Assembly: GCF_008630635.1 (NCBI RefSeq)
Contig: NZ_CP043869.1
Coordinates: 1,550,001 to 1,614,000 of the forward strand
Direction of reading: 5' to 3'
From: Neptunomonas concharum
Lineage (GTDB): Bacteria > Pseudomonadota > Gammaproteobacteria > Pseudomonadales > Balneatricaceae
DNA: 64,000 bases
Numbering within the stretch: position 1 is the first letter of the stretch; each line of letters opens with the position of its first letter. The position numbers were made by a program, and so were the translations under genes. Below the pieces are notes generated by a model. The model did no database searches and had not been told where the DNA came from. It was given only the letters and a program-made list of their open reading frames with translations. Below are positions 5,272 through 21,413 of the stretch, in pieces.

Positions 5272-6090
5272 TTAGTTAATTCTTCGTTTCAGCCCACGAT
5301 CCGCCATGATACGGGTAGAGATCTCCTCGATAGAAAAAGTCGTCGTATTAATAAACGGAAGCTGTTGCTGCTTGAATAGCTGCTCCACATAACGAACTTC
5401 GGTATCGCATTGGGTTAGCGAAGAGTAACGGCTATTGGGGCGGCGCTCATGGCGAATAGCGGCCAACTGAAAAGGATCAATAGTCAGCCCATAAAGCTTA
5501 TCTTTGTAGGGCTTGAGGCTCTCGGGCAGGCCATCCAGCTCCAGATCCTCCTCTGTTAACGGGTAATTTGCCGCGCGGATACCAAACTGTAACGCCATAT
5601 ACAGGCAGGTAGGGGTTTTACCGCAACGGGATACACCCACCAAAATAATATCTGCCCGGTCATACTGTTTGGTACGCGCCCCATCATCATTATCAATGGC
5701 AAAATTCACCGAATCGATCCGGTCTTTATAACGGGTCGCCTCCACAATACCGTGAGATTTACCCACGCTATAGGAGGAATCAATACCAAATTCATGCTCA
5801 AGTGGCTTGATAAAGGTAGAAAACACATCAATCTTCAAAGCGTCGCAACCATTAAGCACGGTGCGAATCTCGTTATTGACGATGGTATCAATCAAAATAG
5901 GCCTGACCCCATCCTGAGCGGCAGCGGCTTGAATCGTCTGTACAGCCACGGCTGCTTTCTCGGGTGAATCGATATAAGGCAGCGTAATCTTCTCCAGCTC
6001 CACGCCATCAAACTGGGCTAACAAACTATTACCCAACGCCTCTGCCGTAATACCCGTACCATCAGAAATAAAAAACACCGAACGCTTCAT
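5272..6090 (-). CDS. ppsR: PEP synthase regulatory protein (bifunctional kinase/pyrophosphorylase)
   Basis: A DUF299-family protein that inactivates PEP synthase by ADP-dependent phosphorylation of an active-site Thr and reactivates it by Pi-dependent removal. The start used here is the ATG at 6090, giving [13 protein letters not shown] and 272 residues, the family length, with AGGTAGG upstream. An upstream in-frame extension of 33 residues is not supported. The P-loop-like [10 protein letters not shown] is at about residues 152-161. Its target ppsA lies divergently at 19047. The two are often adjacent, but here the accessory region separates them. Confidence 0.95.
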
Positions 6091-6482
6091 AACACACCTA
6101 CCTAAATCGAAGGCGAGACTATAGCAAATAAGTACCACTGTGTGCATAAGCGCGACTTTAGTGATGAATACACGTTCTCGACTGGGCAAATCATGAAACA
6201 GGTTAATATCAGATGGATAATGTAAGGCTCAAGGAAGATAACGAGCATGCGGATGAATAAAGTGTTAACTTTTCAGCCCTAATTATCCTCAAATCGCCTC
6301 AGTGCTCGATGCACTGGGGCTTTCAGCGTTTATCAAGCGGAATTACTCAAAAAATGAAATTGGAGCCTTAACTGTTGGTGAGCACCTACGAGTAGGTGCG
6401 ATATTGATTTTGAGCTCATGGTGTTTTGTAATGCAATATCGCTTTTTCTAGCAGCTTTAAAGAATAGTCGACTATGGTGTCA
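6091..6482. other. Non-coding stretch with several hairpins between ppsR and the integron
   Basis: No gene was found. A 10-bp GC-rich stem with one G-U pair lies at 6296-6320. A perfect 8-bp stem with a 2-nt loop (GCACCTAC/GTAGGTGC) lies at 6382-6399. A 9-bp inverted repeat (GCGATATTG 6398-6406, CAATATCGC 6434-6442) is followed by TTTTT, which would look like a plus-strand terminator. This is the outer edge of the integron, 3' to intI. Confidence 0.5.
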
Positions 6483-7450
6483 TCATAGGATGCCATCTAA
6501 AGGGCTATTAGTTCCCGCAAAATGTTGCCCAATAACGTGTGTGTAAATCTGTGTTGTTGAAACGTCGCTATGTCCCAACAGCTCTTGGACTGTTCGAATG
6601 TCTCTGCCAGCCATTAGAAGGTGAGTTGCAAACGAATGCCTAAAAGTATGGCAATTCACTCGCTTGGTTGGGATGTTAGCTAATTGAACTGCTTTTTTGA
6701 GTGTTTTTCGAGGTACTGAGTCATGAAGATGATGACGACAAAGTTCTCCCGTTAATGGATGAGGGTATAAACTAGTCGAAGGAAATAAATACATCCAACT
6801 CAATTGTCGAAATGCATTGGGATATTTTTTGCTTAACGCAAAAGGCAGCGAAGGCCCGTAGCCTCTTCTATTGTCTTGTTGTTGAAGTAATTTCACCGTT
6901 TCAATTTGCTTTGAAATACTGCCTTCTAACTTTCTGCTCAAAATAGTCGTTCGATCTTTATTACCCTTGCTGCATCGAACAACCAGGCTGCCTTGCTCCA
7001 AGTTTAAATCTTGAACTCTAATTCTCAGACACTCACTGATCCTAAGACCGCTACCATACAGCAATGCAAATATCAGCCTATCTCGCTCACTCTCAATTTG
7101 ATCAAAAATCGATTTAACCTCATTGGCAGAGAGTACTGACGGCAAGCGCCGACCTTGTTTGGCATGCTGAAAACCAAGATCTCCAAGGGGCTGTTCAAGT
7201 ACTTTGTTATACAAAAATGCGAGCGCATTCAGAGCAGATTTTGAGTGTTAATAGCAACATGTTGCTCGGTTGCCAGAAAAGAAAGAAAGGCTCTTACCTC
7301 GCAGGCTCCCATCTGATTAGGGTGCTTAAGCTGATGGAATCTAATGAAATAACGAATCCAGTATAAGTAAGACTTTTCCGTTTTCATGCTGTAGCCACGT
7401 ATACGCAACTCGCTTCGAAGGTGATTCATAAAAGGGCTGGAAGACATCAC
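6483..7450 (-). pseudogene. intI: Integron integrase, single-base frameshift
   Basis: A tyrosine recombinase of the IntI class in two overlapping frames. The N-terminal SAM-like domain (7229-7450) begins after an AAGGAG Shine-Dalgarno and runs to INTQNLL-stop. The catalytic domain continues in another frame from about 7240. Adding one A to the AAAA run near 7230-7233 gives the uninterrupted reading INTQKSALNALAFLYNKVLE. The catalytic part keeps Arg in GSGLRISECL, HTFRHSFATHLL, LLGHSDVSTTQIYTHV, and the IntI-specific extra segment (KKYPNAFRQLSWMYLFPS, then RRHH-like CRHHLHDS). Only the frame is broken, so the loss is recent or a sequencing error. Confidence 0.9.
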
Positions 7451-7823: not shown

Positions 7824-8963
7824 ATGAAAAATGAATTTAGCAAAAGGAACATTTACCCATCACCAGCTGATGCTTTTAAGTTCTCATTGGAGCCTATAGA
7901 GAGTATTAAAGATGATGCATTAATTGTTTTAGATGCTAATGTACTTTTACTCCCTTTTACAACTAATGTAAAAAATGTAGAAGCTATAAAAACTGTTTAT
8001 GAGCAGCTCGTTCAAAGTGATAAAATCTTCTTACCAGCTCAAGCAGTAAGAGAGTATTTAGACAATAGAGCTAAGAAACTTACAGATATAAATGAAGCTT
8101 TACAAAAAAAATCGAACCAAAGCTTCAATTATGTTGGTGCTCACCCGCTGTTAGAAAGTTTAGATGAATTCAAGGCAGTCTTAGGGTTAGAAAGTAATCT
8201 GAAAGAAGCAATTAAAGACTATCAAAATAAAATACGAGAAACATTAACAGCAGTTCAAAGATGGGGGTGGAATGACCCTGTCAGTAAAATGTATCAAGAA
8301 GTCTTGGCTGAGCGAGTCTTGAATGATGAAGAAGTGAATGTCGAAGAAATCGCTCAAGATCTCGACAATCGTAATACTTTAAAAATACCGCCAGGATATA
8401 AAGACCAAAATAAGGATCAAAACCAAGCAGGTGATTTACTGATTTGGCATGAAATTCTTACTATAGCCAAAGAAAAAGAACAACATGTAATATTTGTTTC
8501 TGGTGATGAGAAAGTCGATTGGTGGCATCAAAGCGGAAAGAGCCCTTTGTACCCAAGGTTTGAATTGGTGGATGAGTTTAGAGAAAAAACGTCAGGCAAA
8601 TCATTTCATATTGTTAGCCTATCTAAGCTATTAGAGTTATTTGAAACAGATGAAGAAGTCGTAGCGTCAATAAAAGACTCTGAAAAGCTGGCTAAGTCAG
8701 AAACACCTGAAAAAACAACACCTAAAAAGAGAAGCCCATCATATGATCCTGATTGCGAGTATAGGAAACACTTAAAAATACCTATGTCACATGGCTTGTT
8801 AGTAAGTCATGAAAAATGGAAAGTTAAAGGTGGGTATGACACTGATACATATTCTATTACTGAAATAAATGAAAATGGTGAAGTTGAAAACGAATATGAG
8901 CTATTTGATAGCACAAAAACAACACCACCATTTAGTCGAGAAATTTACGGTAAAAAAATATAA
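7824..8963 (+). CDS. PIN-like domain nuclease (PIN_8 type), cassette 1
   Basis: A 379-residue protein. The N-terminal 250 residues form a PIN-like nuclease domain. Acidic metal-site motifs are LIVLDANVLLLPF (Asp near residue 38), an acidic Glu in AQAVREYLDNRA, GDLLIWHEIL (about 203-212) and VIFVSGDEKVDWW (about 221-233). This pattern matches the PIN-like family often encoded in defence islands. The C-terminal 100 residues are charged and unassigned. The preceding sequence AAGGAAATTGTCGTAA gives an AAGGA ribosome site. The TAA stop lies inside the attC R'' box, as is usual for cassette genes. It is likely a metal-dependent RNase; the target is unknown. Confidence 0.8.
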   Translation: MKNEFSKRNIYPSPADAFKFSLEPIESIKDDALIVLDANVLLLPFTTNVKNVEAIKTVYEQLVQSDKIFLPAQAVREYLDNRAKKLTDINEALQKKSNQSFNYVGAHPLLESLDEFKAVLGLESNLKEAIKDYQNKIRETLTAVQRWGWNDPVSKMYQEVLAERVLNDEEVNVEEIAQDLDNRNTLKIPPGYKDQNKDQNQAGDLLIWHEILTIAKEKEQHVIFVSGDEKVDWWHQSGKSPLYPRFELVDEFREKTSGKSFHIVSLSKLLELFETDEEVVASIKDSEKLAKSETPEKTTPKKRSPSYDPDCEYRKHLKIPMSHGLLVSHEKWKVKGGYDTDTYSITEINENGEVENEYELFDSTKTTPPFSREIYGKKI

Positions 8964-9083
8964 CAAAGAATTCAAGCAGACCAAAAACGCATGGCATTTT
9001 CAGCTTGCGTTGAGTATCGTTGTTTACGGTGGTTTGCATAAACGACGTGAGTGCGTTTTTGGCAGCTTAATTGGGCGTTAGGC
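8957..9083 (+). other. attC site 1 (VCR-like, about 125 bp)
   Basis: It begins ATAACAAAG (R'') at 8960 and ends GGGCGTTAGGC (R', GTTAGGC at 9077-9083; crossover after G9077). The interior keeps Vibrio-cholerae-repeat features such as AACGCATGGCATTTTCAG and GGTGGTTT. It closes the PIN cassette and opens the four-gene cassette. Confidence 0.85.
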
Positions 9084-9124
9084 CTGAGTCCCGTTTTGAA
9101 AGTTTAACTATAGAGCGATTGTAT

Positions 9125-10837
9125 ATGGAAATATTATGGTTAGATGAACTGTACAAATCAAAATATAGGAACATAGGAAGCAAGGCGTTGCTTCAGTCTA
9201 TATTGAGTTCAAAAGGAACCAAGGTTCCAGTCGGGTTTTATTTGGGAGGCGATCTAGTATCAGATCTTATTTATAGACAAAATAAAAAGCATATCATTAA
9301 AAAGTTAGAGAAAGTTTTCAATGAGCTAATTCAACTATCAACTGAAAAGACATTTATAGTTAGAAGTTGTTCAAATGATGAGGATGTGGAGGGGCATTTA
9401 TACCCCGGTATTTTTAAATCAATATCAAATATTGTTACTTTTGATGATTTGCTAGATGGAATTAATGAATGCTACAAAAGTGCTTTCGATGAAGTGGTTT
9501 ATGATTATAAAGATGCTATAGGCAGTGATAATAAAGACATACAAATGTCTATCCTTATACAAGAACAAATTAAGGGGGAGATAATCGGTCAATCTAAAAT
9601 AGAGCTATTTGAAGGAGGGGATAGGATATATTGTGAAGCAGTAAAATATAGTAATTTTGAGATGCTTAATCAGTCTTCCCCTGAATATGGATTGGTAGCA
9701 GAATACCACAATGATTCCTATTCTACTCCAACCTATAAAGGCTCAAGTAATTTAAAATCAATCACGGACTCCATTCAAAGTGACTTGGATAATATACGTG
9801 AAGCATGTAAATTTCCTGTGCTTATCGAATGGATATCAAAAAATGATATTGTCTATATTGTGCAAGTTAGATCATTTCCAGCGAGCGCAGCCCCTGAGAT
9901 AGATAGGTACAATTCTCTGACTAAAAATCTACCAAGGTTTGGATATCTAGGATTAAAATCCTCTGCTATGCAGTATTTTAAATCTTCCGGTTGGTTTGAT
10001 CCTGAGCTAGCTTTGTTTAGCCCTGATCTATCTCTAGATGATATAGAGAAAAAAATGGCTGACTTTCCATCTAATGAAAGAGGTATTACTGTCCGGTTCT
10101 CGTATAAGGGAAACCTTGGATTACCGCGTAAGTTTTGTAAATCAAAACAGGAAGCGATAGGATTTATTAAAAGGTTATGGAATGGTAAGTGGAGCTGTAT
10201 AGTTCATACTTACATGACAATCACCAATTCCTTCGAGTTATGGATCGACGACAATGATTATATTCTGGAGCATTTGCCGGGTCTTTGGGAAAGCGATAGC
10301 AAATCCCCTCCTGATTGTATTCATGATTTTAATGATGAGTTATCAATCTCTTTGTCGAAATCTTCCCGAGATATAATTGACGAGTCTGTTGGTGGGATAC
10401 GTTCTAAAATTAGTATTCCTCCAATTAGGCGGGAAACAGCTGATTCGTGGGTTAAACAAATAGCCCCATACTTAGTGAAAATAAGATCAGACTTCAAAGA
10501 AAGTCTCCCTCTAAATTTTCACTTTGTAGAAGATGAAGATGGTAAGTGGAACTTTTTAAACATTAGGATTGCAGGCGAGATCGAAAATTTTTCGGGGGGT
10601 GTGTATTCATTATTTTCAATAAATACTTATGATGATTTTAAGAAATGGAATCGCAAGGATAACTTGTTGATTAGAATGACTCCAGACAGAGGGGATGAGA
10701 TTAATCTATCTAAGATAAAAAAATACGTCCCAGTTGGTACTTTACTGTTTGTTGAATTTGGAGTTCTATCTCATCCAGCAATGGTCTTGAGAGAGTTAGG
10801 ATATAAGGTTAAAAGGTTTATTTCGAGTGATTTTTGA
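9125..10837 (+). CDS. PEP-synthase/PPDK-like dikinase domain protein, cassette 2 gene 1
   Basis: A 570-residue protein from the ATG at 9125; an in-frame TTG at 9071 lies inside attC and is rejected. The N-terminal ATP-grasp of the PPDK/PEP-synthase type has its ATP residues in place: Lys20 in NIGSKA, Arg80 in FIVRSCSNDEDVEG, Glu235 in LIEW, and Gln247 and Arg249 in IVQVRSF. Residues about 260-510 are unassigned. The C-terminus (about 525-570) is a small phosphohistidine swivel domain, with His550 in LSHPAMVLRELG matching [12 protein letters not shown] of PpsA. The PEP-binding TIM barrel is absent. The order ATP domain, middle, His domain is that of rifampicin phosphotransferase. It probably transfers the ATP beta-phosphate to an unknown small molecule. 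Confidence 0.8.
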   Translation: MEILWLDELYKSKYRNIGSKALLQSILSSKGTKVPVGFYLGGDLVSDLIYRQNKKHIIKKLEKVFNELIQLSTEKTFIVRSCSNDEDVEGHLYPGIFKSISNIVTFDDLLDGINECYKSAFDEVVYDYKDAIGSDNKDIQMSILIQEQIKGEIIGQSKIELFEGGDRIYCEAVKYSNFEMLNQSSPEYGLVAEYHNDSYSTPTYKGSSNLKSITDSIQSDLDNIREACKFPVLIEWISKNDIVYIVQVRSFPASAAPEIDRYNSLTKNLPRFGYLGLKSSAMQYFKSSGWFDPELALFSPDLSLDDIEKKMADFPSNERGITVRFSYKGNLGLPRKFCKSKQEAIGFIKRLWNGKWSCIVHTYMTITNSFELWIDDNDYILEHLPGLWESDSKSPPDCIHDFNDELSISLSKSSRDIIDESVGGIRSKISIPPIRRETADSWVKQIAPYLVKIRSDFKESLPLNFHFVEDEDGKWNFLNIRIAGEIENFSGGVYSLFSINTYDDFKKWNRKDNLLIRMTPDRGDEINLSKIKKYVPVGTLLFVEFGVLSHPAMVLRELGYKVKRFISSDF

Positions 10838-10849
10838 GGAAGTAAAAGC

Positions 10850-11362
10850 ATGCTAAAAAATACAAATCCATTTTTAGAACGAATAGCTATTGAAGAATCG
10901 TTGACAGAAGATGACAAATTTAGAGTTGTGAAGGATGCCAATCCTTTGGATGAAGATCATTATTTAGTTTATACAAAGGAAAATTATAGTAGCTTTGCAG
11001 ACGTATGTGCAAATGACCTAGTTCAGTTTTTGGAATCGAAAGTTAATTTTCTGTTGAGTGATGGTTATATCCTCGTGGAGCGGGGACGAGGAGAGAGCTG
11101 TACAGGTGGAAAGGTCATACATGCTCATGCACATATCGTTCCCGTTAAATACAAAGATTCAATTATATCTAAGCTCGGTGAACCGGACTTCACACTGGTC
11201 GCTGAAGGGGGCGTAAATGAATTGTTAGAGAAATCTATAAAATTTCCGTTGTATGTACTTGTGTTTAGTAATAGCTTGAGAGGTTCGCTTTATAAACTGA
11301 ATAGCAGTCTAAAGAAAAGTGTAATAAGAAATATAATATCAAGGGCCGATGTGGCTAAATAA
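10850..11362 (+). CDS. HIT-family (histidine triad) protein, cassette 2 gene 2
   Basis: A 170-residue protein with the triad HAHAHIVPV (His91, His93, His95), the catalytic H-phi-H-phi-H-phi-phi motif of HIT nucleotide hydrolases and transferases. The N-terminal region (NPLDEDHYLVYTKENYSS) matches the usual HIT beta-strand layout that precedes the triad. It has a strong GAGGAAG ribosome site and starts 12 bp after the dikinase-like gene, so it belongs to the same operon. HIT enzymes act on nucleoside phosphates, phosphoramidates or dinucleotides. Here a nucleotide made or consumed by its neighbours is a reasonable guess. The C-terminal 60 residues are unassigned. Confidence 0.8.
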   Translation: MLKNTNPFLERIAIEESLTEDDKFRVVKDANPLDEDHYLVYTKENYSSFADVCANDLVQFLESKVNFLLSDGYILVERGRGESCTGGKVIHAHAHIVPVKYKDSIISKLGEPDFTLVAEGGVNELLEKSIKFPLYVLVFSNSLRGSLYKLNSSLKKSVIRNIISRADVAK

Positions 11363-11377
11363 CACCGAGGCTATAGC

Positions 11378-11929
11378 ATGAATGATAAATACCATAAAAA
11401 GTGTAAAAGTATTTGGATTAGGGCTAGACACAATGCATTTGCTCATAAAGTCACTATGGAAAGACTTAGATTACTTGTTTGGGTAGAAGAAAGTGCAATC
11501 ACACTATTTATCATTGTCCCAATTTTTTGTATTTCCGTGAGCCTGCATTACGCTACAACAAGCACCTCTAGCCCTCAGCTAATGGGATTTAGTCTATATA
11601 CTCTATTGGCAATTACTGGTATTGCTAGTAATGTGGCAGCTCTATATTTGACAATGATGTCAAAAACTCATCAATTTAGGGAAAAATGGTTGCAGAATCA
11701 GAAGTCACTATCTGGTTATCAATTGATAGCCCAAAAAGTCCGACGCCTAGATGAAAGTGAGCTTGATGAATCAGAAGTTGAATATCTTATTCGCCATTTG
11801 GAAGAAAGCTTTGAAACACATAAGTCATATGCAAATGAACCGAGTGATAGTGATTTTGAGAAAGGAAGGGCTTATTTGGCTAGCTTAGTTTCTTATCCAT
11901 TCTCTATAAAAAAAGAAGATTTTTTGTGA
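11378..11929 (+). CDS. SLATT-like two-TM membrane protein, cassette 2 gene 3
   Basis: A 183-residue protein with two hydrophobic helices (about residues 39-58 and 70-93). They are followed by an amphipathic helix (FREKWLQNQKSLSGYQLIAQ) and an acidic C-terminal tail. This is the layout of SLATT domains: 2-TM proteins tied to SMODS and SLOG proteins in nucleotide-dependent conflict systems, and predicted to form pores as cell-killing effectors. It starts 15 bp after the HIT gene with GAGG upstream. The SLATT call rests on topology and helix pattern, so it needs a profile search. No CD-NTase is encoded nearby. Confidence 0.65.
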   Translation: MNDKYHKKCKSIWIRARHNAFAHKVTMERLRLLVWVEESAITLFIIVPIFCISVSLHYATTSTSSPQLMGFSLYTLLAITGIASNVAALYLTMMSKTHQFREKWLQNQKSLSGYQLIAQKVRRLDESELDESEVEYLIRHLEESFETHKSYANEPSDSDFEKGRAYLASLVSYPFSIKKEDFL

Positions 11930-12348
11930 AAAAACGTCTCAATTCTACCAAGAGCTTTGTTGTAGGCTTTCTATTTAATCCTAGTTTAACCCATGTTGTT
12001 TTGATCGAGAAAAATAAGCCGCTATGGCAAAAGGGGCGCCTGAATGGTCTTGGTGGATTGGTGAATGATGGCGAAAGCATTTCTAATGCTATATCGAGGG
12101 AAGTATTTGAAGAATCTGGAGTTATGCTTCCTCCTCAGCTATGGTCGCAATTTCATAAGACAACGAATAAAGACGATAAAATAGTTCATTATTTTTTCGC
12201 TGTAAGTAGTTTGGCTAACAAAGCTAAATCCAATGAAAAAGAAAAGGTGAGCTTAGTGAGCATTAATCAGTTACCTTCTAATTGCCTGCATGATATAAAA
12301 AAACTCATTATGCTAGCGATGGGTAGAATGGATTGCACGAGTATATAA
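11926..12348 (+). CDS. Nudix hydrolase, cassette 2 gene 4
   Basis: A 140-residue protein with an intact Nudix box at residues 44-66 (G-x5-E-x7-REV-x-EE-x-GV, all metal-binding Glu present). It starts at GTG 11926, overlapping the SLATT-like stop (GTGA), so translation is coupled. The box is preceded by KGRLNGLGG, as in MutT-type Nudix enzymes. The substrate is unknown. In this operon it could degrade a nucleotide signal or supply its precursor. It is the last gene before attC site 2, which begins about 34 bp downstream. Confidence 0.85.
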   Translation: MKKRLNSTKSFVVGFLFNPSLTHVVLIEKNKPLWQKGRLNGLGGLVNDGESISNAISREVFEESGVMLPPQLWSQFHKTTNKDDKIVHYFFAVSSLANKAKSNEKEKVSLVSINQLPSNCLHDIKKLIMLAMGRMDCTSI

Positions 12349-12381
12349 CCTTAAAAAACTGCATTATTTCAGAGAGAAAGG

Positions 12382-12475
12382 CCTAACAAGTGGCTGTAGT
12401 CGCCATGCAAGCATGGCTGGGACGGTTTCTCCGATGCTTTGCAGCTCCAAACCCGCCCCTAAGCCAAGCGTTAAT
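12382..12475 (+). other. attC site 2
   Basis: CCTAACAAGTGGCT at the left can fold onto AAGCCAAGCGTTAA at the right (GCGTTAATT at 12468-12476). The centre is imperfectly paired (GCATGGCTGGGACGG). It ends the four-gene cassette, which spans about 3.4 kb with no internal gap able to hide another attC. Confidence 0.8.
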
Positions 12476-12536
12476 TGTCCTGCAAGAAAGTAGAGCTTAC
12501 TGCTGATGCAAGATGTTAGTTAAATGTCCGGTTTAC

Positions 12537-12583
12537 TGTACAGGTGTGCTCTGTAAGACTATACTTGTTCCATTAAATGTACA
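12537..12583 (+). promoter_or_regulatory. Promoter/operator of the YefM-YoeB pair
   Basis: TGTACA (12537-12542), a 17-bp spacer and TATACT (12560-12565) read as -35 and -10. A second TGTACA lies at 12578-12583. TGTACA palindrome cores are the known operator motif of YefM-YoeB autorepression, so the operator overlaps the -35 box. The cassette therefore carries its own promoter. Confidence 0.65.
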
Positions 12584-12596
12584 GGTTGAGGTTCTT

Positions 12597-12851
12597 ATGA
12601 AAATCGTATCTTTTACAGAAGCAAGAAATAGCCTCAAAGCTGTTCTAGACGGGGTAGTTAATGATGCCGATACAACAGTCATTACACGCCGTGACTCTGA
12701 AGATGCAGTGGTTATGTCTTTAGACTACTACAACAGCCTTATGGAGACCGTTCACTTACTTCGTTCTCCTCAAAACGCAGAGCATTTAAATCGTTCTATA
12801 GCGCAATATCGTGCTGGTAAAACAACAGCACGAGAGTTAGTTGATGAGTAG
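12597..12851 (+). CDS. yefM: YefM/Phd-type antitoxin
   Basis: An 84-residue protein from the ATG at 12597. MKIVSFTEARNSLKAVLDGV is the Phd/YefM DNA-binding N-terminus, and the upstream in-frame extension contains the operator and is rejected. The acidic C-terminal half (about residues 55-84) should wrap the toxin. The GAT-GAG-TAG end overlaps the toxin start at 12844. It neutralises the neighbouring YoeB-type RNase and represses its own promoter through TGTACA sites. In integrons such pairs usually stabilise the array. Confidence 0.92.
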   Translation: MKIVSFTEARNSLKAVLDGVVNDADTTVITRRDSEDAVVMSLDYYNSLMETVHLLRSPQNAEHLNRSIAQYRAGKTTARELVDE

Positions 12852-13113
12852 TAGCCAATATCTGTTATCGTGGACTGATGCTGCTTGGGATGACTATTTG
12901 TATTGGCAAACCCAAGACAAGAAAACATTAAAGCGTATCAACAAACTCATCAATGACGTGAGGCGCTCTCCGTTTGAGGGTATTGGTAAGCCAGAGCCTT
13001 TAAAAGAGAACCTATCTGGTTTTTGGTCACGTCGCATTGATGACACAAATAGACTCGTCTATGCTGTCGATGATCAGGCGATAACGATAATTTCGTGCCG
13101 CTACCATTACTAA
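12844..13113 (+). CDS. yoeB: YoeB/Txe-type mRNA interferase toxin
   Basis: An 89-residue RelE-fold ribosome-dependent endoribonuclease. The YoeB pattern is present: WTDAAWDDYLYWQTQD at the start, GKPEPLKENLSGFWSRRIDDTNRLVY in the middle, and a C-terminal CRYHY that supplies the catalytic His. Glu and Arg candidates (KPEPLK, WSRR) are also in place. The ATG at 12844 overlaps the antitoxin stop. It is complete and looks functional. Confidence 0.92.
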   Translation: MSSSQYLLSWTDAAWDDYLYWQTQDKKTLKRINKLINDVRRSPFEGIGKPEPLKENLSGFWSRRIDDTNRLVYAVDDQAITIISCRYHY

Positions 13114-13338: not shown

Positions 13339-13629
13339 TCAGAATAACTTTTTAACATCGCAATAAAAGTTCTCATGAGAACCAAGTGCTATTAATTCCA
13401 GTATTACAGTGCCATCCTTGTAGCTGTAACCAAGTAAAGTTAACTGTTTGACCATTTTGAATTTATACACGCGCAGAAATGCTAGGTCCCCTTTTTTCTG
13501 CTCCCCTAGGAGGGGATCGTCCATCAGTATCTTTACGGTTTTATCCAAATCTTTTTTCTGATTCTGATGTAACTTCTTTACCGCCTTCTTGAAACTAGCT
13601 GTCTGTAAAACTTTGGTAATCTTAGCCAA
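13339..13629 (-). CDS. RelE/ParE-family toxin
   Basis: A 96-residue basic protein with a RelE/ParE-superfamily layout. Two N-terminal helices (SFKKAVKKLHQNQKKDLDKTVKILMDDP) are followed by strands: LAFLRVYKFK, then QLTLLGYSY, then VILELIALGSHENFY. The GSHENFY ending is common in this toxin group. It overlaps the antitoxin stop by 8 bp and is translated after it. Activity (gyrase poison or mRNA cleavage) cannot be told from the sequence. It is encoded against the cassette direction, so it relies on its own promoter. Confidence 0.8.
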   Translation of the reverse strand: MAKITKVLQTASFKKAVKKLHQNQKKDLDKTVKILMDDPLLGEQKKGDLAFLRVYKFKMVKQLTLLGYSYKDGTVILELIALGSHENFYCDVKKLF

Positions 13630-13843
13630 AATCGTAAGGCTCCAATTTTCCAGCCTCTTTTTCAGCTTTGGAAATGATTGCCTGTTTAACGAATTCGTAT
13701 GGCAAGTCAGGATTATCTTCCATCATTTCACCTATCTTTGCCCAATGCTCAATCTGTTTCGGCATAGTTCGATTTAGCGCTTTACCCATAATGGTCGCTT
13801 TCTCAACCAGATCTTGATCTAGCCTTACGCTTGCAGTTGCCAT
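13622..13843 (-). CDS. ParD-like antitoxin
   Basis: A 73-residue protein starting MATASVRLDQDLVEKATIMG, which fits a ribbon-helix-helix DNA-binding N-terminus. An acidic C-terminal tail (about residues 40-73) would bind the toxin. A strong AGGAGG ribosome site sits 6 nt before the ATG. It is transcribed first and overlaps the toxin gene by 8 bp. The promoter at 13872-13900 contains a perfect inverted repeat suited to autorepression. Confidence 0.82.
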   Translation of the reverse strand: MATASVRLDQDLVEKATIMGKALNRTMPKQIEHWAKIGEMMEDNPDLPYEFVKQAIISKAEKEAGKLEPYDFG

Positions 13844-14042: not shown

Positions 14043-14189
14043 ATGGACGCTTCAACAACAATCAAACAAATGCTGGCAGGAAACAGAATCTTTGTGCCGG
14101 CTTACCAACGTGCCTACGACAACCAGCTTTTCAAAGATTATGTGATTGACCAAATCAAAAAAGATAACAATGGACTAGGAAACATATGA
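14043..14189 (+). pseudogene. Truncated DUF262 (GmrSD/ParB-like) fragment
   Basis: A 48-residue reading frame with a good ribosome site (AAAGGAGAA). ASTTIKQMLAGNRIFVPAYQ is the N-terminal signature of DUF262 proteins, the nucleotide-binding/nuclease family that includes the GmrS part of type IV restriction. The normal continuation (Arg-x-Tyr-Ser-Trp and several hundred residues) is replaced after DNQLFKD by short unrelated sequence and a stop. It is a remnant caught in a cassette. Confidence 0.7.
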
Positions 14190-14320
14190 ATAAGTTCCCA
14201 CTAATACTCTGCAGCTCGCATAAAATGGGAACCAAGTCTTTATATTTAGGAATTAATCTTATGTTCCCTAGCTTATGGCTGTCCTGTTATTTTCCTCTGG
14301 CATGGCGTCAATATGGTTGA
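14186..14320 (+). CDS. Small hydrophobic ORF, uncertain
   Basis: A 44-residue frame starting at an ATG that overlaps the DUF262-fragment stop (ATGA). It contains a hydrophobic stretch (LMFPSLWLSCYFPLAW) that could be one membrane segment. I do not recognise it. The overlap could be chance, and no independent ribosome site is seen. Confidence 0.25.
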   Translation: MNKFPLILCSSHKMGTKSLYLGINLMFPSLWLSCYFPLAWRQYG

Positions 14321-19046: not shown

Positions 19047-21413
19047 TTGCATAATTACGTATTACGTCTCGACCAGGCGGGTATGGGCGATGTTGAAAAA
19101 GTAGGCGGTAAAAACGCATCCCTCGGTGAAATGATCAGCCAGCTAACCAGCGTCGGCGTTAAAGTCCCCGGTGGTTTTGCGACTACGGCTGAAGCGTTCA
19201 GAGATTTTCTGGTGCATACCGGTCTTAAAGAGAAGATCGACGAATCCCTTAATCAACTTGATGCCAACGATGTGGTTGCTTTAGCGTCCACAGGTAAAGC
19301 GATCCGCCAGTGGATTTTAGAGGCGGAGTTTCAACCGGAGCTCGATAAAGCGATTGAGCTAGCTTATGCCGATATGACGCAAGGGGATGAAGTAGCGGTG
19401 GCGGTTCGTTCGTCAGCAACCGCTGAGGATCTTCCTGATGCGTCTTTTGCTGGGCAGCAAGAGACATTCCTGAATATACGCGGTCTTGATCACGTTAAGC
19501 AGGCGATCAAAGAGGTATTTGCCTCTCTTTATAATGATCGCGCTATCTCCTATCGTGTGCACCAAGAGTTTGAACATAGTGAAGTCGCCTTATCGGCAGG
19601 CGTACAGCGTATGGTACGTAGTGAAACGGGCGCCTCTGGCGTTATGTTTACTATGGATACAGAGTCTGGCTTTAACCATGTAGTCTTTATTACGGCTGCT
19701 TATGGTTTGGGTGAGACGGTTGTTCAGGGGGCGGTCAACCCTGATGAGTTTTATGTTTATAAGCCTACGCTCACGCAAAAAGTACCGGCTATTCTACGCC
19801 GTACTTTGGGGTCTAAAGCGATTAAGATGGTGTATGCGGGTGAAGGCTCGACTAAAAATGCGGTAGAAACCGTCAGCGTAGATGCAAAAGATCGAAACCG
19901 CTTCTGCATTACGGATGCGGATGTTCAACGTCTGGCAGAGATCGCTGTCATTATTGAGAAGCATTACAACCGTCCTATGGATATTGAGTGGGCAAAAGAT
20001 GGCGACGATGGTGAGCTGTATATTGTTCAAGCACGCCCTGAGACGGTTCGTAGCCGTGATAATGCGAATGTCATCGAGCGATACCTGCTAAAAGAAAAAG
20101 GCAATGTACTGGTAGAAGGGCGGTCGGTTGGCCATCGTATCGGCTCTGGCCCTGTGCGTTTGGTTTCTGATTTGGCAGAGATGGATCAAGTCCAGCCCGG
20201 TGATGTGCTGGTAACAGATATGACAGATCCAGACTGGGAGCCGGTGATGAAACGGGCTTCTGCCATCATCACAAACCGAGGAGGCCGTACCTGCCACGCG
20301 GCGATTATTGCGCGAGAGCTGGGTATCCCAGCTATTGTTGGCTGTGCTGATGCCACAGACCGCCTACGCGATGGCCAAGTCGTCACTGTCTCTTGTGCTG
20401 AAGGCGATACCGGACGTGCTTATGAGGGCAAGCTGAATTTTGAGCATCAGACCAACAGTGTTGATTCTATGCCGAATTTGCCTTTTGATGTGATGATGAA
20501 TGTTGGTAACCCAGATCGTGCTTTTGACTTCCAATCCCTACCTAACTCGGGTGTTGGTTTAGCGCGGCTAGAGTTCATCATTAACCGCATGATTGGTGTC
20601 CACCCTAAAGCGTTACTAAATTTGCACGATCAAAGTCCTGAAGTCAGACAAGTTATCGAGCGTCGCATCTCGGGTTATGGTGGGCCGGTAGATTTCTATG
20701 TGGAGAAACTGGTTGAGGGTATCGCTACGCTTGCTGCGGCTTTCTATCCGAAGAAAGTGATTGTTCGTATGTCGGACTTTAAGTCTAACGAATATGGACA
20801 CCTGATTGGCGGAGATCAGTATGAGCCGGGAGAAGAAAACCCCATGCTCGGTTTCCGTGGTGCGGCGCGCTATATTTCGGATTCTTTCCAAGATTGCTTT
20901 GAGCTGGAGTGTCGTGCACTCAAGAAAGTGCGTGATGAAATGCGCCTAACGAATGTTGAGGTCATGATTCCGTTTGTGCGCACGGTCGGCGAAGCAAAAC
21001 AAGTGATTGACCTGCTAGAAGAGAACGGTTTGCGCCGTGGCGAAAATGGTCTGCGCGTTATTATGATGTGCGAGATACCGTCCAATGCGCTCTTGGCGGA
21101 TCAGTTCCTTGAATACTTTGATGGCTTCTCTATCGGCTCTAACGATCTTACACAGCTGACATTAGGGTTAGATCGCGATTCTGGCGTCATTGCCCATCTG
21201 TTTGATGAGCGTAACGATGCCGTGAAAAAACTCCTCAGTATGGCGATTGATGCGTGCAAAGCGCAGGGCAAATATATCGGCATCTGCGGGCAAGGGCCAT
21301 CAGATCACCCTGATTTGGCAAGGTGGCTAATGGAGCAGGGGATCAGTAGCGTATCCCTTAACCCGGACTCAGTGCTGGATACTTGGTTCTTCTTAGCGAA
21401 CGAATCGAAATAA
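19047..21413 (+). CDS. ppsA: Phosphoenolpyruvate synthase
   Basis: Converts pyruvate, ATP and water to PEP, AMP and Pi in gluconeogenesis. It has 788 residues, close to E. coli PpsA. The order is N-terminal ATP-grasp ([34 protein letters not shown]), the phosphohistidine domain with His417 in [21 protein letters not shown], and a C-terminal PEP-binding barrel ([16 protein letters not shown]). Translation begins at TTG 19047 with AGGAG 9 nt upstream; no ATG fits. PpsR at 5272-6090 regulates it post-translationally. A strong terminator follows. Confidence 0.97.

Follow-up and report, generated by a model that had tools for sequence, protein, structure and literature searches.

The stretch of Neptunomonas concharum DNA analyzed here, 64,000 nucleotides long and hereafter called the window, spans positions 1,550,001-1,614,000 of the 3.56-Mb genome. 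A short chromosomal integron within it contains one cassette of four tightly packed genes, all on the + strand, which encode a dikinase-like protein (P0001), a HIT-family protein (P0002), a SLATT-like protein (P0003) and a predicted Nudix hydrolase (P0004). Homologs of the first two proteins occur together in all four full-length relatives that were found, and the other partners vary. Judged by sequence, the conserved unit is better described as a dikinase-HIT core with exchangeable partners than as a four-gene system. The cassette is quite possibly, though not yet probably, a member of a rare, seemingly undescribed family of defence-like bacterial conflict systems whose output would pass through the exchangeable partner.

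Conservation of the dikinase-HIT core

Genomes of 84,980 species, one per species, were scanned for sequences that could encode the swivel motif in degenerate form (a hydrophobic residue, an S/T-like residue, H-P-A-[MI], then R-E and G). The scan yielded at least 100 loci, each of at most 8 kb. The counts below refer to these 100, all of which were searched by tblastn with P0001-P0004 at a threshold of E 0.01. P0001 matched 20 of them (E ≤0.01), 16 in the ATP-grasp region only and four over most of the protein. The four full-length relatives come from three metagenome-assembled genomes (MAGs): a Desulfovibrio MAG (L141, 32% identity, 3e-74), a Clostridia MAG (L115, 31%, 3e-67) and a Dysgonamonadaceae MAG that holds two on different contigs (L074, 28%, 8e-46; L045, 27%, 7e-40). 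L141 and L045 were extended as L149 and L150, respectively.

A homolog of P0002 was found by tblastn (E ≤0.01) in 4/4 loci with a full-length dikinase versus 0/96 of the others. The probability of this pairing by chance is 2.6e-7 if the loci are independent, and two of the four share one MAG bin. A HIT profile search identified the same 4/100 loci, but only the tblastn result counts as independent evidence, because the profile contains these sequences. Dikinase and HIT form a single polypeptide in L141/L149 and in L045/L150, the latter fusion carrying an N-terminal HTH_3 domain (4e-10), and are encoded by separate adjacent genes in L115 and L074. The HIT triad HxHxH is present in 5/5 members, as is ERGR....CT ahead of it, a feature that lies outside the selection made by the search pattern.

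The window's own HIT protein, P0002 (170 aa; 10850..11362, + strand), has the intact triad claimed in the original prediction (HAHAHIV; H91/H93/H95). Its matches to DcpS_C (7.3e-5) and HIT (0.01) fall slightly below the curated cut-offs, and the HIT score of P0013 lies just above (22.4 vs 21.5). With its triad, P0002 is assigned to the HIT superfamily.

Features of the dikinase-like protein

P0001 (570 aa; 9125..10837, + strand) was taken to start at the ATG at 9125; the TTG listed at 9071 falls inside the upstream attC site. By estimated borders the protein consists of an ATP-grasp domain (about residues 1-261), a middle domain (about 262-512) and a swivel domain (about 513-570). PPDK_N, its only Pfam match, covers residues 54-152, the ATP-grasp core only (E 2.3e-14). 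The swivel motif is present (EFGVLSHPAMVLRELG). Pfam did not detect its domain in P0001; among the relatives, one has a PEP-utilizers match below the cut-off (E 0.0043). A pyruvate/phosphoenolpyruvate (PEP)-binding barrel was not found, and the protein stops after the swivel motif. P0001 thus resembles PEP synthase and PPDK in its ATP-grasp and swivel His, and differs from them in its C-terminal swivel, missing barrel and length of 570 aa. The earlier description as a PPDK/PEP-synthase-type ATP-grasp with its own swivel and no barrel proved accurate.

All five members share K20, R80, E235 and Q247, residues that align with the ATP site of the window's own PEP synthase; this enzyme aligns with P0001 over the ATP-grasp only. 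The equivalent residues of PPDK bind ATP. Rifampicin phosphotransferase (RPH) uses Lys22 and Arg117 at its ATP site, as passages of PMC4844700 describe. The arginine that follows Q247 is absent in 2/5 members. In the A1 alignment the swivel motif FG.LSHPA..LRE.G is common to 5/5 members; only its F, G, L and L show conservation, because the search pattern itself required S-H-P-A, R-E and G. The predicted phosphohistidine, His550 (codon 10772..10774, + strand), lies in the LSHPA found in 5/5 aligned relatives. These features, ATP-site residues in an ATP-grasp together with the swivel SH motif, place P0001 in the dikinase superfamily as a predicted member.

The middle domain has no profile match. 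Its invariant residues include R324, E371, E382, P385-G386, W388, S390-D391, H466 and R481, a set that would fit an acceptor-binding domain. The domain had appeared by eye to be a second ATP-grasp derived by tandem duplication, a candidate that was dropped (profile comparison E 0.57).

Variable partners of the core

P0003 (183 aa; 11378..11929, + strand) has hydrophobic stretches at residues 31-61 and 73-94 in its hydropathy profile. Taken alone it is not convincing as a SLATT protein. It matches SLATT_1 at E 0.024 and mob_CxxC_CxxC at E 0.0017, and in Pfam it has only a chance-like NUDIX_5/KRIT match (E 0.006). By tblastn, P0003 matches the SLATT-like genes of L149 (E 1.5e-16) and L150 (E 1.9e-9). 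Of its relatives, P0016 matches SLATT_4 (5.6e-5), and P0017 matches SLATT_4 (8.7e-6), SLATT_5 (4.6e-5) and the PADLOC model RTasSLATT (5.9e-4); the Pfam SLATT models match neither P0016 nor P0017. The earlier assignment of the 183-residue protein to SLATT can be kept provisionally because of this homology through P0016 and P0017, and not on its own match. P0001, P0002 and P0003 have no match to any PADLOC model at E up to 1.

In the two fusion loci, Desulfovibrio L149 and Dysgonamonadaceae L150, the fusion gene overlaps at its end with a SLATT-like gene. SLATT follows the core in 2/4 relatives, or 3/5 systems overall. Other genes take this place in the remaining two. In L115 the core is succeeded by the gene of a 980-aa protein whose C-terminal region matches Trypsin_2 weakly (0.012), and then by a Trypco1 gene (7.3e-14). 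In L074 the product of the next gene is 679 aa long, has hydrophobic stretches near its N-terminus and matches HEAT_2 under the cut-off (6.1e-5); the sequence ends 260 bases past this gene, and SLATT further on is possible.

P0004 (140 aa, GTG start; 11926..12348, + strand) has the intact Nudix box of the original prediction (residues 44-66) and scores 40.9 bits against NUDIX versus a cut-off of 21.1 (E 2.5e-10); profile and box together identify it as a predicted Nudix hydrolase. Neither tblastn with P0004 (E up to 0.05) nor the Nudix-box pattern found a Nudix gene in L149, L150, L115 or L074, leaving the cassette in the window as the only one of five systems with one.

For three of the four families, the lack of recurrence that would have refuted the original prediction did not materialize. 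HIT accompanies the dikinase in all four relatives (fused in two) and SLATT in two. Nudix accompanies it in none, and its proposed place in the core is not supported. At least dikinase, HIT and SLATT are not a chance set, because they recur outside this array.

After the Desulfovibrio SLATT gene lies P0019 (868 aa; L149 7129-9735, - strand), which has a PRA-PH/MazG-like domain and an LSH motif and is possibly another nucleotide hydrolase in the place of Nudix. By eye it had been considered a second, diverged dikinase. Hmmsearch with the family profile gave no match and hhalign a weak swivel match (probability 2.9%, E 0.015). Because this comparison gave no support, P0019 is used as a lead by its PRA-PH-like part only.

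The Desulfovibrio copy adjoins a type I restriction system (N6_Mtase 3.9e-58, Methylase_S 1.3e-23, HSDR_N 1.2e-31). On its other side is a DUF6602 gene (1.8e-25) that matches a NucC-type effector in PADLOC (7.1e-24), then an HTH gene (HTH_3 2.9e-7) and a phage-type integrase (8.3e-25). A defence-island setting, in the form of restriction system, NucC-like gene and integrase, was thus found for 1/4 relatives. The contigs of L115 (8 kb) and L074 (4.9 kb) give little information on context.

Distribution of the family

The dikinase-HIT family is rare in the collections searched. Single-sequence searches with P0001 matched 39/293 genomes of the order (E up to 1e-3), 11/369 of the class (1e-5) and 1/299 of the phylum (1e-8), the own genome included in each count, and found no relative. 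The other matches in these genomes are short and nearly all lie in residues 1-175 (ATP-grasp core, PEP-synthase-like proteins); one covers residues 274-369 in a frame interrupted by stops. P0001 gave 15 pattern matches in viral_contigs and 33 in genome_contigs, with 0 relatives in either; plasmids, phages and E. coli genomes, the last searched by DNA, contained none. Searches with alignment A1 matched 1/150, 3/198 (two in the ATP-grasp only), 1/117 and 1/83 genomes, the full-length matches being already-known members. In viral_contigs, A1 gave 12 and A2 77 pattern matches, with 0 relatives, and the 5 matches from a viral pilot of the swivel pattern were all taken as chance.

P0002 was found in 1/116 family genomes, its own, and not in plasmids or viral contigs. 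P0003 matched 2/369 class genomes and no plasmid or viral contig; one genome was its own and the other match was weak, a HemX/HemY-like stretch by eye, and taken as chance. P0004 matched four plasmid records (three of Variovorax, one of Malaciobacter) and no viral contig, and the operon was missing in the three records inspected. P0005 was not found in plasmids and phages, and P0007 matched 21 plasmid records, none reaching 80% coverage of P0007.

Thermococcales loci (L047, L081, L103) encode proteins with an ATP-grasp and an SHPA-type swivel; they have the next-best family-profile scores after the members (1.5e-37 to 8.6e-35).

The integron

The four genes are separated by 12 nt and 15 nt and, between the last two, overlap by 4 nt. 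They lie between two attC sites read by eye, whose ends are approximate (8962..9088 and 12384..12478), as originally described. The bottom strand of the upstream site folds at -19.1 kcal/mol, and 2/200 shuffles fold equally well. The fold of the downstream site is not clearly better than that of shuffled sequences (21/200 equally good). With an integrase gene and flanking attC sites, of which only the upstream one has fold support, the unit is classed as an integron cassette. Its G+C content is 36.3% versus 45.5% across the window.

The integrase gene, intI, lies at the start of the integron on the - strand (6483-7450) and is 62-64% identical to IntI2 and a Vibrio integrase. Its coding sequence is divided between two frames, with the C-terminal part open at 6483-7214 and the N-terminal part immediately upstream. 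The array may be immobile, or the split may be a sequencing error. The first cassette encodes a 379-aa PIN_8 protein (7824-8963, + strand; E 7.9e-39), perhaps a defence or toxin nuclease. Following the four genes is a cassette with a Phd/YoeB toxin-antitoxin pair (12513-13113, + strand; E 7.2e-22 and 3.3e-43), and a later one holds a ParD/ParE-like pair (13339-13843, - strand; E 2.3e-17 and 3.9e-37). Past the last attC-like site, a short open reading frame (14044-14200, + strand) has by eye a DUF262/GmrS-type start (IFVPAYQRAYDN) and an early stop, and is perhaps a cassette remnant. The integron is situated between a PEP synthase regulator (by eye; 5272-6189, - strand) and the PEP synthase gene (19047-21413, + strand). 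The closeness of the dikinase-like cassette to a true dikinase gene is a coincidence.

Proposed function and alternatives

Composition, fusions, conservation, partner swap and one defence-island context were observed here; for the reactions, the signal and the anti-phage purpose we infer the following scheme. The ATP-grasp would bind ATP and His550 would take its beta-phosphate, leaving AMP and Pi, a step proposed because of the conserved residues and the known reactions of RPH and PEP synthase. In RPH, according to passages of PMC4844700, a His attacks the beta-phosphate of ATP, the gamma-phosphate is lost and the swivel then swings over to the acceptor domain; by analogy, P0001 is expected to phosphorylate an acceptor. 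The swivel would hand the phosphate over, at the middle domain, to a small molecule or nucleotide X to give X-P. Enzymes of the HIT family process nucleoside phosphates via a nucleotidyl-His, and HIT could then join a nucleotide to X-P, producing an NDP-X-type signal, or tune the signal level. The constant pairing and the existence of fusions suggest that HIT acts on the same product, as a second synthase step or as a brake. The signal would open or assemble SLATT in the membrane and lead to arrest or death of the infected cell; passages of PMC9503650 and PMC7159879 treat SLATT as a predicted membrane effector responsive to nucleotide signals. In other members the effector would be the HEAT-like membrane protein or the trypsin/Trypco1 pair; the swap is observed and the action presumed. 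Nudix enzymes split nucleoside diphosphates linked to X, and in the cassette version Nudix may reset the signal as an accessory off-switch.

In its full form, in which dikinase-HIT makes a phosphorylated nucleotide-conjugate messenger on infection and acts through interchangeable effectors and Nudix- or PRA-PH-type erasers as a new principle of immune signalling, this scheme is somewhat unlikely. The broader assignment to a conflict family is favored by the constant HIT pairing, the fusions and the SLATT genes that overlap them, by swapped partners bearing signatures of conflict systems (Trypco1, HEAT_2), by the surroundings of the Desulfovibrio copy, by the invariant ATP-site residues and the published prediction for SLATT, and by the company of the window cassette, which sits among the PIN_8 and the two toxin-antitoxin cassettes.

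Several observations weigh against both. The signal-effector-eraser scheme is not uniform, because SLATT is present in 3/5 and Nudix in 1/5 systems. As a second eraser P0019 is doubtful, its PRA-PH-like domain scoring 20.4 bits (E 7e-4) versus the Pfam cut-off of 21.3. The NCBIfam SLATT scores of P0003, P0016 and P0017 are all below curated cut-offs. Predicted structures of P0001 and P0003 are too poor to use (predicted local distance difference test, pLDDT, 36 and 58). Only five members are known, four on MAG contigs and two of these from one bin, and no relative was found in the phages, plasmids or viral contigs searched. Recurrence in defence islands, to which the original prediction had looked, holds for the Desulfovibrio copy beside its restriction system and not for the L150 copy, whose neighbours are housekeeping genes by eye.

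An enzymatic toxin-antitoxin module would account for the tight overlaps with SLATT, for the fusion of one member's core with an HTH, a feature of autoregulated modules, and for the toxin-antitoxin pairs in the adjoining cassettes. The SLATT, HEAT or trypsin-like partner would be the toxin, which dikinase-HIT would restrain by phosphorylating or nucleotidylating it, with no diffusible signal. However, one modifying core would then need three unrelated kinds of partner as substrates, and the window enzymes are far larger than the putative toxin, which is unusual for toxin-antitoxin pairs. We consider this explanation unlikely.

It is likewise improbable that the genes serve small-molecule metabolism unconnected with conflict; in this reading the dikinase would phosphorylate a metabolite, HIT and Nudix would process nucleotide conjugates and SLATT would be a membrane helper. 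Dikinase relatives do perform such chemistry, a comparable case being the glutamine kinase of the Campylobacter capsule pathway, and P0001 matches PRK05849 (E 9.7e-5) and further PEP-synthase-like models. The rarity of the family, with at most one member in each sampled order, speaks against it, as does the company of HTH, Trypco1 and a restriction system; no biosynthetic genes were seen beside the relatives.

An antibiotic-inactivating phosphotransferase of the RPH kind in a resistance-type cassette, which the original prediction named as its main rival, has lost ground because of the genes that accompany the relatives, and is now very unlikely. RPH has the ATP-grasp first, then the acceptor domain, and the phosphohistidine swivel last (passages of PMC4844700), the same order as P0001, and RPH models match P0001 at E 2.8e-8. 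However, the match (32.6 bits vs a cut-off of 999) is limited to residues 62-151, the generic ATP-grasp core, and P0001 has 570 aa versus 864-865 positions in the models. P0001 shows neither the rifampicin-binding middle domain, its own being unmatched by the RPH models, nor the curated score of an RPH. The fixed HIT partner, the HIT fusions, SLATT and the swapped, effector-like partners would be left unexplained. A chance set of unrelated genes is hardly credible: integron cassettes have many origins and the Nudix gene resembles an add-on, but dikinase, HIT and SLATT recur and fuse elsewhere, which contradicts it for three of the four genes.

Relationship to known systems

Systems with SLATT effectors pair them with SMODS, SLOG, TIR or reverse-transcriptase partners. 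The conflict family proposed here resembles them in its two-transmembrane SLATT-like partner, which overlaps the enzyme gene, in 3/5 members; it differs in that their partner enzymes are unmatched by the cassette proteins (Pfam, PADLOC) and the enzyme is a dikinase-HIT pair. Known messenger synthases have no match in the cassette proteins. As stated in the original prediction, no CD-NTase match was found in the four proteins (Pfam, PADLOC, NCBIfam), and the cassette does not qualify as CBASS. P0004 matches the PADLOC candidate PDC-S07 (4.3e-6), which is a candidate only and contains nothing of the dikinase-HIT core. With a trypsin-like protein and Trypco1 following its core, L115 recalls the Trypsin/Trypco1 modules of nucleoside triphosphate-dependent conflict systems; dikinase, ATP-grasp and HIT have 0 occurrences in the available portion of PMC7159879, which treats these modules. 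In the main text of DefensePredictor (PMC13092281), SLATT, Nudix, dikinase and phosphoenolpyruvate all have 0 occurrences, and MazG is listed among the predicted domains.

The view that the combination lacks a description held up: it has no name in PADLOC, and no paper joins these parts among the literature matches listed (mostly open literature, without preprints or supplements), so that a prior mention is possible. The enzyme-plus-SLATT layout is known; the dikinase-HIT enzyme pair is new as far as searched.

If the proposed scheme is correct, phosphohistidine (dikinase) chemistry would extend the range of enzymes that drive immune signalling in bacteria, and the messenger would be new. A dikinase subfamily that is covered in profile libraries only by a generic ATP-binding domain would also gain a function. 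Direct tests of the system are feasible because the cassette is compact and versions exist with both enzymes in one polypeptide.

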